Shown one piece after another: positions 4,446 through 34,960 of a stretch of DNA of 39,278 nucleotides (the stretch's first letter is position 1; every line of letters starts with the position of its first letter). Origin of the DNA: a virus; the IMG/VR virus record IMGVR_UViG_3300047478_000128, positions 1-39,278 of that record; one strand, 5' to 3'. The notes under the pieces were generated by a model. The model was not told the DNA's origin and made no database searches. It saw nothing but the letters and a program-made list of their open reading frames with translations. The translations under genes and the position numbers were made by a program.

Positions 4446-5789
4446 ATGTCAAAAGAAATCATCGAAAAATTGGATGCCATCGAAGCTAAACAAGCTGAGA
4501 GCATCGTGGCTGTTGAAGCCAAAATCCCTGCTGCTGTTGAAGCCGTTAAAGCTGAAATGGCTGAAATGGTTGCTGCTTTGGAAGCCAAAGTTGCCGCTAT
4601 TCCTGCTCCCGCAGTTCACAAAGAAAAAGCCAAGAGCGTTCGCCAAGACGTAAACCGTTCTGTCAAAGAACAACTCAAAGCAATCTCCGAAGGCAAAAAC
4701 ACTCTTGAGAAACAACTGCAAGTTTTCGCAGACGAATCTCAAATGGAAGCCTACATGAAAGAAGCATCGGCTCTGACTGCTGGCGGTAACAACCAAGGTG
4801 GTCGTACTGGCTATGACCCTGTGTTTGCTGCTTTGCGTTTGGCTAACCCAATGCGCGGCGTGTCTCGCACTGTGGCTACCGATGGCTCTAGCTATCAATT
4901 CCGTGTGAAGACCGGCAATGCTGGCGCTGCATGGGGCTACACAATCCAGAACAACGGTTCGGCAACAACTGAAAACACTTCAATCTGGCAATTGGTTTTG
5001 CAAGACTTGAACGTGCAGTTCCCTATCCGTACTGCTGCTCTTGACGACATCGACGGTTTGGAAGCAAACGTGGTTGACGATATGTTGGCTGAATTCGCAC
5101 AAGCCGAAGCTCTGTCAATGATTCAAAACAACGACCAAGGCTTGACCAGCTTGCCATACGGCGGCTCTAACGGTCTGCGCGGTTTGAACCAATACGCTGG
5201 TGCTAACAGCTCTTACGCTGGTGGTACAACTTCCACTGCTGCTTTCGGTAGCTCTGGTACTGGTTCTACAAGCGGTTTGCACAGCTTGGCTACTTATGAC
5301 CAGTTGACTTCCAACACCAACACTGTCGGTGCTGCAAACATCACCTACAAAGACGTTGTGAACTTCATCTACGCCTTGCCACAACAATACTGGACTGAGA
5401 GCGCTAAGTTCATCATTAGCCCTGTCTTGTTGGCTCAAATCCGTGGTTTGACAGATACAAACGGCACTCCTGTGTTCGAGCGTATGTCTCCTCTGGAAAC
5501 CAATGGCATTGTTGGTCGCTTGTTGGGCTTTGACGTTGTTGTGAACAAGTATTTGGACACTCCATCTCAAACCACTACCGCTTCTGCTGGCACAACTAGC
5601 TTGTACCCAATGTACTTCGGTGACTGGTCTCGCGGCCACACCATCATTGACCGTTTGAACATGGTCATGCGTCGTTACGACCAGACAGCCCCCGGCTATA
5701 TCACCTTCTTCGGTGAGAAGCGTTTGGCTACATCTGTGCGTGACCCGTTCGCTATCGTGCGTTACCGCTCGACTGCTACCGCAGCCTGA
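4446..5789 (+). CDS. Major capsid protein 1 (HK97 fold, with delta domain)
   Basis: The 447-residue protein has an N-terminal alanine- and glutamate-rich helical segment (residues 1 to about 105), expected to act as the scaffolding delta domain, followed by the HK97 capsid core. The boundary lies near KEASALTAGG (105-114), a plausible site for the prohead protease. Core landmarks include DPVFAALRLANPMRG, SIWQLVLQDLNVQFPIRTAAL and the C-terminal FFGEKRLATSVRDPFAIVRY. It follows the protease gene after two bases. A strong hairpin terminator lies just downstream, so this gene may be expressed above its neighbours. Confidence 0.93.
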   Translation: MSKEIIEKLDAIEAKQAESIVAVEAKIPAAVEAVKAEMAEMVAALEAKVAAIPAPAVHKEKAKSVRQDVNRSVKEQLKAISEGKNTLEKQLQVFADESQMEAYMKEASALTAGGNNQGGRTGYDPVFAALRLANPMRGVSRTVATDGSSYQFRVKTGNAGAAWGYTIQNNGSATTENTSIWQLVLQDLNVQFPIRTAALDDIDGLEANVVDDMLAEFAQAEALSMIQNNDQGLTSLPYGGSNGLRGLNQYAGANSSYAGGTTSTAAFGSSGTGSTSGLHSLATYDQLTSNTNTVGAANITYKDVVNFIYALPQQYWTESAKFIISPVLLAQIRGLTDTNGTPVFERMSPLETNGIVGRLLGFDVVVNKYLDTPSQTTTASAGTTSLYPMYFGDWSRGHTIIDRLNMVMRRYDQTAPGYITFFGEKRLATSVRDPFAIVRYRSTATAA

Positions 5790-5800
5790 TAGTTGCCTTG

Positions 5801-5827
5801 GATGGGGAGTTCGCTCCCCATCTTTTT
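5801..5827 (+). terminator. Rho-independent terminator between the two capsid genes
   Basis: GATGGGGAG (5801-5809), a TTCG loop, then the exact complement CTCCCCATC (5814-5822) followed by TTTTT form a 9-bp perfect stem with a U tail. It sits 11 bases after the stop of capsid gene 1 and 19 bases before the start of capsid gene 2. It would let most transcripts end after the capsid gene and reduce read-through to the rest of the late operon, or it could stabilise the capsid mRNA 3' end. Confidence 0.85.
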
Positions 5828-5846
5828 AACTCTCATTGGAATAACT

Positions 5847-6863
5847 ATGACTATCACCGAAAAAATCCTGAACGGCATTAAGCAAGCCATTACCGAAGGT
5901 GGCAAAGTCACCATTGACCTGAAAGAAGCCTCTGCAATCACTGGTTCTGGTTCGGGCGTTGGTGGTAATGTTGTATTCGACGATGCGTTTGCCGCCCTGC
6001 GTCAAGCAAATCCACTGCGTCAAGGCTCACGCCAAATTGCCGTGAACGGCTCTGATGCTCAATTCGTTGCCAAGACTGGTAACGCTGCAAACTCCACAAA
6101 CCCTTGGGGTTACGAATTTACTCCCAACTCAGGTTCTCCTGATGTTGATACATCCATTTGGCAATTGCCAGTGCGAGTGTTGGTTGCACAGCTTCCAATC
6201 CGTACTGCCGTGTTGTCCGATGTAAACGCTCTTGACTCTACATTGGTTGAAGACTTGGCACTTGAGTTTGCTCAATTGGAAGGTCAATCAATGGTCTTGA
6301 ACGACGACCAATCTGGCTCTACAACTGACGCAACTGGCGCTGAATACGGCCTGCGCGGTTTGGACAGCTATCCATCTGGTTCCGTGAGCGCCTACGGCTC
6401 AAGCGGCACTGCAATGACCGATGGCTTGCACGACATTGCTACCGTGTCTTTGGGTGGCACTGCTGTAACCTACAACAAGATTGTGGACACAGCAAACGCA
6501 CTGCCTGCTCAGTATTGGTCACTGGAAGGTACGGCTTGGCAAATGAGTCCAGCAATGATTTTGGCTCTGCGTGAGTTGAAAGACAGTTCTGGTATGCCTC
6601 TGTTCTTGGAAATTGGCGATGCTGATGGCGCTGCTGTTGGTCGCGTGTTCGGCTGGCCTGTTATTCCAAACCCATACTTGTCTGCTGATTTCCCTGTCTA
6701 CTTGGCAAACTGGAATCGCTTTTTGACAATCGGTGATACCGAGCAAATGAATGTTCAGATGTATGAGCAAACACAGCCCGGCTTCATTACCCTGTACGCA
6801 GAAAAACGTCTGGTAAGCTCTGTGCGTGACCCGTTTGCGGGTGTTCGTATTAGCGCAGCATAA
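5847..6863 (+). CDS. Second HK97-type capsid protein (short N-terminus)
   Basis: The 338-residue product is a clear paralogue of the upstream capsid protein. They share FDDAFAALRQANPLRQGSRQ, SIWQLPVRVLVAQLPIRTAVL, NALPAQYW, and the C-terminal LYAEKRLVSSVRDPFAGVR. Its N-terminus is only about 25 residues up to KEASAIT, which matches KEASALT at the delta-domain boundary of capsid 1, so nearly the whole scaffold domain is missing. ATG 5847 follows a TTGGAATAACT leader; a TTG at 5793 would read through the terminator and is unlikely. It may be a minor capsid subunit, for example pentameric, or an alternative capsid protein. Confidence 0.88.
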   Translation: MTITEKILNGIKQAITEGGKVTIDLKEASAITGSGSGVGGNVVFDDAFAALRQANPLRQGSRQIAVNGSDAQFVAKTGNAANSTNPWGYEFTPNSGSPDVDTSIWQLPVRVLVAQLPIRTAVLSDVNALDSTLVEDLALEFAQLEGQSMVLNDDQSGSTTDATGAEYGLRGLDSYPSGSVSAYGSSGTAMTDGLHDIATVSLGGTAVTYNKIVDTANALPAQYWSLEGTAWQMSPAMILALRELKDSSGMPLFLEIGDADGAAVGRVFGWPVIPNPYLSADFPVYLANWNRFLTIGDTEQMNVQMYEQTQPGFITLYAEKRLVSSVRDPFAGVRISAA

Positions 6864-19835: not shown

Positions 19836-21993
<2,158 letters not shown>

Positions 21994-21998
21994 AGAAC

Positions 21999-23048
21999 AT
22001 GAAAATCGCTGTCTACGCAATCTCAAAGAATGAATCTCAATTTGTTGAGAGGTTCTGTCGCTCGGCGAAAAATGCTGATGTGATTCTGATTGCTGACACT
22101 GGCTCAATAGATGACACTGTTGAGTTGGCCCGTTCGCATGGGGCGATTGTTCATAATATTTTTATCAATCCTTGGCGTTTTGACAAGGCGCGTGACGCGG
22201 CTTTATCTTTGATTCCAAGCGATGTTGATGTGTGTATCAGTCTTGATCTTGACGAGGAACTTCAAGAGGGCTGGAGAGAAGAAATCGAGCGAGTTTGGCA
22301 AGAAGACACAACGCGACTTCGTTATAAGTTTGATTGGGGCATGGGGATTGCTTTCTATTACGAGAAAATCCATCATCGCAAAGGCTATCACTGGCATCAC
22401 CCATGCCACGAGTATCCAGTCCCAGACGTTAGAACGAATGAGGTTTGGGCGCATACTGATATGCTTTTGGTTGTTCACAAACCAGACTCAACAAAGTCTC
22501 GCGGTCAATATCTTGACCTTCTTAAAGTCGCTGTCACAGAAGACCCGCGCTGCCCAAGAAATGCCTTCTATTACGCCCGTGAACTCACGTTCTACCGCCA
22601 TTGGAATGAAGCAATAGCAGAGTTAAACCGTTACCTTGCACTTCCAGCGGCAACATGGGAAAACGAGCGTTGTTATGCAATGCGTTTGATGGGTAAATGC
22701 TATGACGAACTTGGCGACTTCAACAACGCTTTGAAATGGCATAGGCTGGCCGTGGCGGAAGCTCCTAACACCAGAGAGCCTTGGGTTGAGCTTGCTATGT
22801 TTGCCTACACAAAATCAATGTGGCTTGAAAGTTATTACGCCGCGACATCTGCCTTGCAAATCGTAAATAAGCAAGATGTTTATACAATGAACCCCGATGT
22901 GTGGACTGAACAGCCACACGATCTGGCAAGTATTGCAGCATGGCATTTAGGGCTGAAAGACAAAGCGGTTGAGCATTGTCAAACAGCCCTTGGATACGCC
23001 CCTGCAAACGAACGAATCCAAAGCAATTTACAAATGATGGTGCAATGA
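21999..23048 (+). CDS. Glycosyltransferase family 2 with TPR-like C-terminal half
   Basis: The 349-residue protein starts with a GT-A fold signature: MKIAVYAISKNESQFVERF, IADTGSIDDT (residues 31-40), and the metal-binding DxD in SLDLDEEL (D83/D85). Residues about 180-349 are tandem helix pairs with TPR spacing (MRLMGKCYDELGDFNNALKW). It should transfer a sugar from a nucleotide-sugar to an unknown acceptor. Lying between fibre and lysis genes, it could decorate virion fibres or alter the host envelope; the sequence does not decide. Confidence 0.83.
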   Translation: MKIAVYAISKNESQFVERFCRSAKNADVILIADTGSIDDTVELARSHGAIVHNIFINPWRFDKARDAALSLIPSDVDVCISLDLDEELQEGWREEIERVWQEDTTRLRYKFDWGMGIAFYYEKIHHRKGYHWHHPCHEYPVPDVRTNEVWAHTDMLLVVHKPDSTKSRGQYLDLLKVAVTEDPRCPRNAFYYARELTFYRHWNEAIAELNRYLALPAATWENERCYAMRLMGKCYDELGDFNNALKWHRLAVAEAPNTREPWVELAMFAYTKSMWLESYYAATSALQIVNKQDVYTMNPDVWTEQPHDLASIAAWHLGLKDKAVEHCQTALGYAPANERIQSNLQMMVQ

Positions 23049-30769: not shown

Positions 30770-31054
30770 ATGGCGACGAGAAAACCGAAAGAAGCCCCAA
30801 GACTGTTTGGGCCACCACTGGAGCGCCCAAGCACCTACAAAGGCGGGATAACTCAACAAGAGTTGGAACACATGAGGGATTGCGAAGCCCGAGAGTGGAT
30901 AAAAAGATACCGCGAGAAGGTATCGACGAGTGGTGCTATCGAAGCATCGAATTGGTGGCAGCACCATTTAGAACAAATGCAGCGAATCAGAGGAGAGTCC
31001 GCTACTTTGGATTTGAGGCGGCGAATGACTGAACAACAGAGGAAAAAGAAATGA
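30770..31054 (+). CDS. Conserved phage protein (HMRDCEAREW type)
   Basis: The 94-residue basic protein has GGITQQELEHMRDCEAREWI followed by KRYREKV, then WWQHHLEQMQRIRGESATLD. It matches a small phage family that I recognise by this pattern but cannot name reliably. An overlapping frame at 30763 would encode an unrelated protein and was rejected. The last bases overlap the next start. Confidence 0.75.
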   Translation: MATRKPKEAPRLFGPPLERPSTYKGGITQQELEHMRDCEAREWIKRYREKVSTSGAIEASNWWQHHLEQMQRIRGESATLDLRRRMTEQQRKKK

Positions 31055-31446
31055 CACAAGAAATTATCAACATTGACATTAAAGACACTTCATTGCCTGT
31101 AAGGGTTAAGAATTGTTTGGCTGCTGGAAACATTAAAAATGTTGAACAGCTTTTGCAGCTTGAGGCGTGGCAACTTAAAAGAATTCCTAATTTGGGAATC
31201 AAAAGCGCCAAGGAAATTATTGAGTATGTGAATTCGCTTGGGTACGAACTGAAAGGTCAAGATAGCTTTGATAAAAACAAAGCCAAGTTGCCTTGGGTGA
31301 CAAAGTTGATTGATGAAGCTGTGGCTAAAGAGCGTGAGAATTGTTCTGACAGAGTTTGGATGGCCTTAATTAAGCATGGGATTGCTTGGAATGTAAGGCA
31401 GGACGTAACAAGCGCCATCATGTTGAAAGCTCAAAATGAAGATTGA
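31051..31446 (+). CDS. Protein with RNA polymerase alpha-CTD-like domain
   Basis: The 131-residue protein begins with a region (residues 12-62) that aligns without gaps to the E. coli RpoA C-terminal domain: SLPVRVKNCLAAGNIKNVEQ and ELLQ-like helices, then RIPNLGIKSAKEIIEYVNSL. R18, N21, C22, G49, K51, S52 and E55 match E. coli R265, N268, C269, G296, K298, S299 and E302, the UP-element contact set, at the same spacing. D12 matches D259. The CRP-contact 287 determinant is not kept. Residues 80-131 hold a separate AVAKERENC-type region. It may bind DNA or imitate alpha. It overlaps rusA by 11 bases. Confidence 0.8.
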   Translation: MTQEIINIDIKDTSLPVRVKNCLAAGNIKNVEQLLQLEAWQLKRIPNLGIKSAKEIIEYVNSLGYELKGQDSFDKNKAKLPWVTKLIDEAVAKERENCSDRVWMALIKHGIAWNVRQDVTSAIMLKAQNED

Positions 31447-31792
31447 ACTGGACTTTCCTCCTGCCGAACTATTCCCAAACAGAGCCAAGGGAACACATTG
31501 GGCCAAGCTGTACCAAGTCCGTAGTGACTACCGCGACAACTCAACCTTCCTTGCCAAACATCAAATCAAAGATTGGAAGCATGACGGTGGAGACATTCGC
31601 CTCAAGCTGACATTCATCATGCCCGACAAACGGATGCGTGATGCTGATAACTGCCTAGCGGCAGCTAAAGGTGCGTTGGATGGACTATCAGATGCCTTGA
31701 TGGTGAATGACAAGTTCTTTCAACCCATCGAAATCCATCGTCAATTTGGCGATAAATCAACCCGTAAGCTAGTCGTTGAAATAGGAGAATGA
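31436..31792 (+). CDS. rusA: Holliday junction resolvase RusA
   Basis: The 118-residue protein resolves four-way junctions during phage recombination or before packaging. It has the RusA signature RMRDADNCLAAAKGALDGLS with D69, D71 and, further on, D92 in MVNDKFF, corresponding to the catalytic aspartates. The N-terminal FPPAELFPNRAKGTHW is typical. Start overlaps the previous gene. Confidence 0.92.
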   Translation: MKIELDFPPAELFPNRAKGTHWAKLYQVRSDYRDNSTFLAKHQIKDWKHDGGDIRLKLTFIMPDKRMRDADNCLAAAKGALDGLSDALMVNDKFFQPIEIHRQFGDKSTRKLVVEIGE

Positions 31793-34687: not shown

Positions 34688-34960
34688 ATGACACAAGATG
34701 AAATCCTTGAGATGGCTAGACAAGCTGGATTTTTGTATGGAACTATGGGGCCATCAAATGCACGATTTGTCACGGCTATTGGGCATACGTTTATTGTTGA
34801 GCTTGAAACCTTTGCCAAACTGGTAGCAGCTAAAGAGCGTGAGGCGTGTGCAAAACGATGTGAGGAACTTGAAAAAGCATGGGTAAACGCAGGGTTATGG
34901 AAAGTAACTCATGAATACAAAGAATGTTCCGCAGCAATTCGAGCAAGAGGTGAAGCATGA
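34688..34960 (+). CDS. Conserved phage protein (AAKEREAC type)
   Basis: The 90-residue protein has MTQDEILEMARQAGFLYGTM, a FAKLVAAKEREACAKRCEEL block and a final CSAAIRARGEA. The AAKEREAC..AIRAR pattern is a common phage accessory module; a related AVAKEREN region lies at the C-terminus of the alpha-CTD-like protein. Function is unknown. Confidence 0.75.
   Translation: MTQDEILEMARQAGFLYGTMGPSNARFVTAIGHTFIVELETFAKLVAAKEREACAKRCEELEKAWVNAGLWKVTHEYKECSAAIRARGEA

Follow-up and report, generated by a model that had tools for sequence, protein, structure and literature searches.

A tailed phage encodes a small protein in which the C-terminal domain of the RNA polymerase alpha subunit (alphaCTD), a domain normally discussed as part of the polymerase, stands alone, retains most of the residues that grip DNA in its polymerase counterpart and is fused to a second, helical region. 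The window, by which we mean the whole stretch of DNA analysed here, is the 39,278-base record of this virus and carries genes for terminase, capsid, an O-like primosomal protein, a MazG-like protein, RusA, NinB and a Gam-like protein, in keeping with the original prediction, made from the sequence alone, of a phage gene amid replication and recombination genes. That prediction of a stand-alone alphaCTD with a retained DNA surface and a fused second region is borne out by the alignment to E. coli, the match in fold and the invariance of R265 among viral domains; the roles that it suggested, competition for UP elements, tethering of another factor to phage promoters or activation of transcription, are hypothetical.

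Results

The reading frame, strand and boundaries first proposed for the gene proved correct (Table 1). The stop of the 94-aa gene upstream overlaps the start of the alphaCTD gene (ATGA), and the 3' end of the alphaCTD gene overlaps RusA by 11 bases. The 94-aa gene matched neither Pfam nor PHROG, and the RusA gene scored just under the cut-off for Pfam RusA. The best isolate match of the window terminase is Methylophilaceae phage P19250A (61%), in which no alphaCTD match was found. Elsewhere in the window, tandem major-capsid-like genes (4446-5789 and 5793-6863, + strand), both matching Pfam Phage_capsid and 41% identical to each other over about 340 aa, represent a capsid gene duplicated within one phage, and a collagen-like repeat protein (20323-21993) adjoins a gene (21999-23048, + strand) with a glycosyltransferase family 2 domain and weaker TPR-like matches.

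Table 1. Features of the alphaCTD gene and of the slot in which it lies
Feature	Position in window	Strand	Basis
Stand-alone alphaCTD gene	31051..31446	+	131 aa; open frame, PF03118 52 bits, AlphaFold mean pLDDT 84
alphaCTD domain, residues 1-69	31051..31257	+	match to E. coli 256-314; pLDDT 93-97 (residues 11-70)
C-terminal helical tail, residues about 86-131	31306..31443	+	degenerate copy of 'EREACA...AIRARGEA'
Conserved 94-aa gene upstream, left edge of slot	30770..31054	+	precedes RusA in most related loci listed
RusA-like Holliday-junction resolvase gene, right edge of slot	31436..31792	+	phrog_34, E 7e-16

The assignment to the alphaCTD family rests on several concordant matches. Against Pfam PF03118 (RNA_pol_A_CTD) the protein gave the significant hit that had been anticipated (E 6e-14 over residues 3-60), its 52 bits lying far above the curated cut-off of 23.8, compared with about 88-96 bits for genuine RpoA. 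A generic helix-hairpin-helix identity was rejected, with HHH_5 at 21.3, HHH_3 at 17.8 and HHH_2 at 12.7 bits, all under the cut-off of 27; the best of the unrelated families, HHH_5, thus matched less well than PF03118. The best sequence matches among solved structures are all RNA polymerase alpha subunits, and residues 9-67 align without a gap to the E. coli domain at an offset of 247, a match slightly longer than the residues 12-62 at first proposed. With a profile built from RpoA only, the real protein scored 59.7 bits and the best of 2000 shuffles 10.3, so that a chance match to RpoA is excluded. The alpha N-terminal domain is absent, full-length rpoA models scoring far under their cut-offs (for example 48.8 against 227.8), and the protein therefore cannot be built into RNA polymerase.

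In RpoA, the 265 determinant (R265, N268, C269, G296, K298, S299 and E302) contacts the UP-element minor groove, K271 is a further residue of the UP-element DNA-binding surface, the 261 determinant contacts sigma70 region 4 and, in E. coli, the 287 determinant contacts CRP. The E. coli alignment places R18, N21 and C22 at R265, N268 and C269, places G49, K51, S52 and E55 at G296, K298, S299 and E302, and sets D12 at D259, confirming the spacing that had been claimed for these residues; N47, the counterpart of N294, is kept in addition, and D259 is also conserved in the two closest relatives of the protein. As had also been noticed, E261 is replaced by serine (S14), the two relatives having P or T there, and E-A-W-Q (residues 38-41) stands in place of 285-288, so that neither the 261 nor the 287 determinant is reproduced; the 285-288 region varies among RpoA as well. 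K271 has become A24, a change that the original prediction missed, yet one that leaves its seven listed residues intact and its term 'near-complete' apt. Judged from these residues, the protein keeps nearly all of the surface that meets UP-element DNA and half of that facing sigma, and has lost the one for CRP. Published work names R265, N294 and K298 as residues that touch the UP minor groove and describes alphaCTD-UP binding as weak but specific (PMC5101437).

An AlphaFold model, whose input alignment combined the window protein with its two relatives and 14 further viral alphaCTD domains, is most confident over the domain (Table 1). In a Foldseek search of the PDB the top matches are alphaCTDs, at an rmsd of 0.7-1.2 Å over about 65 residues, among them 1z3e_B (TMt 0.94, 0.8 Å), the E. 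coli domain solved with CAP and DNA (1lb2_E; TMt 0.90, 1.2 Å) and the alphaCTD of Caulobacter bound to A/T-rich DNA (9zum_B; 0.9 Å). The model accordingly superposes on solved alphaCTDs, DNA-bound ones included, as the original prediction had expected. Given the gap-free alignment and an rmsd of about 1 Å, the seven DNA-contact residues should share one surface, as they do in the solved domains.

The gene occupies a variable position in the genomes of related phages. We compared 39 IMG/VR loci with a related RusA; the same ~95-aa gene precedes RusA in most of those listed, and the slot between the two (L010-L048) holds zero or one small gene. Among the loci listed, the slot is empty in L013, L014, L015, L018, L019, L020 and L047, and elsewhere it can hold one of many unrelated small genes. 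An alphaCTD homologue, 50-57% identical and directly before RusA, lies in the slot at two of the 39 loci, L010 and L022, and a PF03118 search of 26 of the underlying records was positive for these two only. The flanking sequence reaches 96% identity with that of phages lacking the alphaCTD gene, and the GC content of the domain, 37% against 48% for the genome, ranks among the lowest 0.5% when 210-nt windows are compared, a value to which its lysine-, asparagine- and isoleucine-rich sequence contributes. Because carriers are few, empty sites clean, flanks near-identical without the gene and GC low, we conclude that this is an accessory cargo gene and, since it is carried by so few of the related loci, that phages of this kind can do without it.

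The remainder of the protein has relatives of its own. A second region, first placed at about residues 80-131, is indeed fused to the domain and is predicted to be helical, with helices at 81-108 and 112-129 (pLDDT 59-87, less certain than the domain) and the tail proper beginning at about residue 86. Over 43 aa it shares 51% identity with the tail carried by the protein encoded at L033:8343-8645, and the 'EREACA...AIRARGEA' tail recurs on small phage proteins with unrelated N-termini, at loci L012, L014, L015, L022, L033, L037 and L041 and on a further ORF of the window (34688-34960, + strand), for which neither Pfam nor PHROG gave a match. At L037 the slot before RusA itself holds a tailed protein. 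A search of 50,697 phage records with the tail alone came back empty. From these likenesses, the window protein looks like an alphaCTD placed before a shared phage tail.

The combination of a short phage ORF, a PF03118 domain, no alpha N-terminal domain and unrelated joined sequence, all found in the window protein, recurs widely. A DNA pattern for IPN[L/F]GRKS..E matched 31 IMG/VR stretches, which brings to about 30 the virus stretches besides the window with an alphaCTD-like domain outside RpoA; none of the complete ORFs from the pattern matches is RpoA. Most of these ORFs encode 126-171 aa and some up to 252 aa, or 371 aa for phage V16 when the in-frame extension upstream is counted; the domain stands at one end or the other. 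The protein of a plasmid carries the domain together with Sigma70_r4 above the cut-off, and four phage alphaCTD proteins have weaker, sub-threshold HTH matches. A single-protein scan of IMG/VR gave no match, alignment scans returned only the two known relatives, and a scan of genome contigs found only a genuine RpoA and thus no relative in a prophage whose host is named. Four human-gut records labelled 'Bacteriophage sp.' (MT835508, MT836419, MT837142 and MT839537) were rejected as phage, being bacterial contigs with rpoA; the gene is full length in the first three and present only as its end in MT839537, and is followed by a ribosomal-protein-like ORF.

We compared 28 RpoA CTDs, drawn mostly from one phylum, with 28 distinct domains, namely those of the window protein and its relatives, of the pattern matches, of Mazun and Goe8 and of a plasmid protein from Chryseobacterium. 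R265 is invariant in all 26 viral or mobile-element domains in which the position is present; N268 is kept in 22/26, C269 in 15/26, K or R at 271 in 13/26, an acidic residue at 259 in 17/23 and one at 261 in 15/26, the corresponding counts for the RpoA set being 28, 28, 28, 27, 27 and 26. The drop at acidic 261 gives a Fisher p of 0.004, uncorrected for kinship, and C269 and K271 have drifted too. Positions 292-302 are uninformative, having been set by the search pattern, outside which R265 and N268 lie. R265, a surface DNA-contact residue, is thereby singled out as what these domains keep, and the relaxation of 261 across the class, with the loss of E261 in the window protein, argues against a faithful copy of a sigma-contacting alphaCTD. 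A tree of the domain (63 columns) is mostly unresolved, and on it a single capture from RpoA and several captures look alike.

Discussion

The window protein resembles the C-terminal domain of RpoA (PF03118) in its fold, its gap-free alignment and its retention of R265, N268, C269, N294, G296, K298, S299 and E302, and differs from RpoA in lacking the alpha N-terminal domain, in the replacement of K271, E261 and 285-288 and in ending in a phage tail. It is not a one-off, as stand-alone phage alphaCTD proteins are already named in databases: CcrColossus gp133, vB_EliS-L02 ORF 40 and a protein of Rhodococcus phage Finch are annotated with the domain and are likened to it by that annotation and by length, the best BFVD matches being similarly long (128-135 aa). 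In Ruegeria phage vB_RpoS-V16 gp23, Microbacterium phage Mazun gp26 and Bacillus phage Goe8 gp005 an alphaCTD is joined to unrelated phage sequence, and in Morganella phage Mecenats66 ORF34 (L084 3662-4225, annotated DUF2591) NinX is joined to a marginal alphaCTD (24.6 bits, cut-off 23.8); in each of these the partner differs and the domain is only distantly alike. Our literature search on PF03118 and alphaCTD-like proteins in phages found no functional study. Alpha-subunit function is an established target of phage takeover, as exemplified by Rac of phiKMV-like phages, Alt and ModA of T4 and Ogr of P2 (PMC7552054; PMC7824862); these proteins modify, remove or bind the host subunit, whereas the phage described here supplies its own copy of the domain.

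We consider it probable that the alphaCTD protein binds DNA. Detached from the polymerase, the domain would serve as a small DNA-binding module for A/T-rich minor grooves, made together with the replication and recombination genes as an accessory early protein. R18, N21, N47 and K51 would grip A/T-rich, UP-element-like minor grooves and, a lone alphaCTD being a weak binder, the helical tail may add avidity through self-association or by docking on a partner. The main effect would be transcriptional: by occupying UP-like tracts at promoters the protein could block host or early promoters or hold a partner at phage promoters. On balance we give this account, of a minor-groove module with tail avidity and altered promoter use, about as much chance of being right as of being wrong. 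It is favoured by the profile and fold matches to DNA-bound alphaCTDs, by the pattern of retention across the class (R265 invariant, N268 kept in 22/26, acidic 261 reduced to 15/26 against 26/28 in RpoA) and by the recurrence of the domain with DNA-binding partners, Sigma70_r4 and the sub-threshold HTH matches. Against it stand the loss of both K271 and E261 in the window protein, neighbours that are recombination and replication genes rather than known regulators, the scarcity of the gene (2/39 related loci) and the confidence of the tail model, which drops to a pLDDT of 59-75.

Those neighbours invite a different explanation, that the alphaCTD plays no part in transcription and is a generic helix-hairpin-helix DNA module for recombination or replication of the phage; it could, for instance, bring the resolvase or some other early protein to DNA. 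The gene overlaps RusA in the window and directly precedes it in both relatives, and in other phages the domain lies near DNA polymerase A and Hjc-like and VRR-NUC-like nucleases, near a YqaJ exonuclease with ERF and NinB, or near an AAA_24 ATPase with SSB and a Cas4 exonuclease; a relaxed position 261 with R265 kept would suit such a role. Among 22 virus loci whose flanks could be read, roughly a dozen have a replication or recombination gene only a few genes away, a count in which neighbours were named by profile for representatives and by eye from likeness for the rest, several loci are mutually related and early-region clustering is uncontrolled. Most phages group genes of these kinds in their early region, about 8 of the 22 loci have no such neighbour, and in relatives the slot adjoining RusA is occupied by many small genes of other, unrelated kinds. 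The neighbourhood supports this explanation without deciding for it, and we regard it as rather unlikely.

It seems improbable that the protein is instead a decoy, mimicking the alphaCTD to titrate sigma region 4 or host activators away from RNA polymerase. The overall fold is that of a real alphaCTD and D259 survives as D12 here and in the two closest relatives, but E261 and the CRP-contact residues 285-288 are replaced, and across the class it is position 261, not the DNA-contact residue R265, that is relaxed. The rarity of the gene among relatives, its low GC and its degenerate tail end could also describe a recently acquired gene fragment, nearly or wholly without function, that chance has preserved in a cargo slot. 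We find this very hard to credit for an intact frame that overlaps its neighbours on both sides, whose DNA-contact residues, apart from C269 in one case, persist in homologues that share no more than 50-57% identity with it, and whose class recurs in many phages.

Returning to the minor-groove module acting at promoters, a broader proposition can be put forward tentatively, although we incline somewhat to doubt it: phages may repeatedly lift the alphaCTD from RNA polymerase and shuffle it onto modules of their own as a cassette that binds the DNA minor groove, put to use in early DNA processing or in the control of promoters, with R265 kept as the sigma contact erodes, with the tail of the window protein serving as a phage-wide docking or oligomerisation module. 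The shared tail ties the alphaCTD protein to many other uncharacterised small phage proteins, and the phage alphaCTD proteins already annotated gain a concrete hypothesis. A recurring class of phage proteins that keeps the DNA-gripping surface and drops the rest raises the question of whether phages use it to seize promoters or to clamp DNA for recombination.
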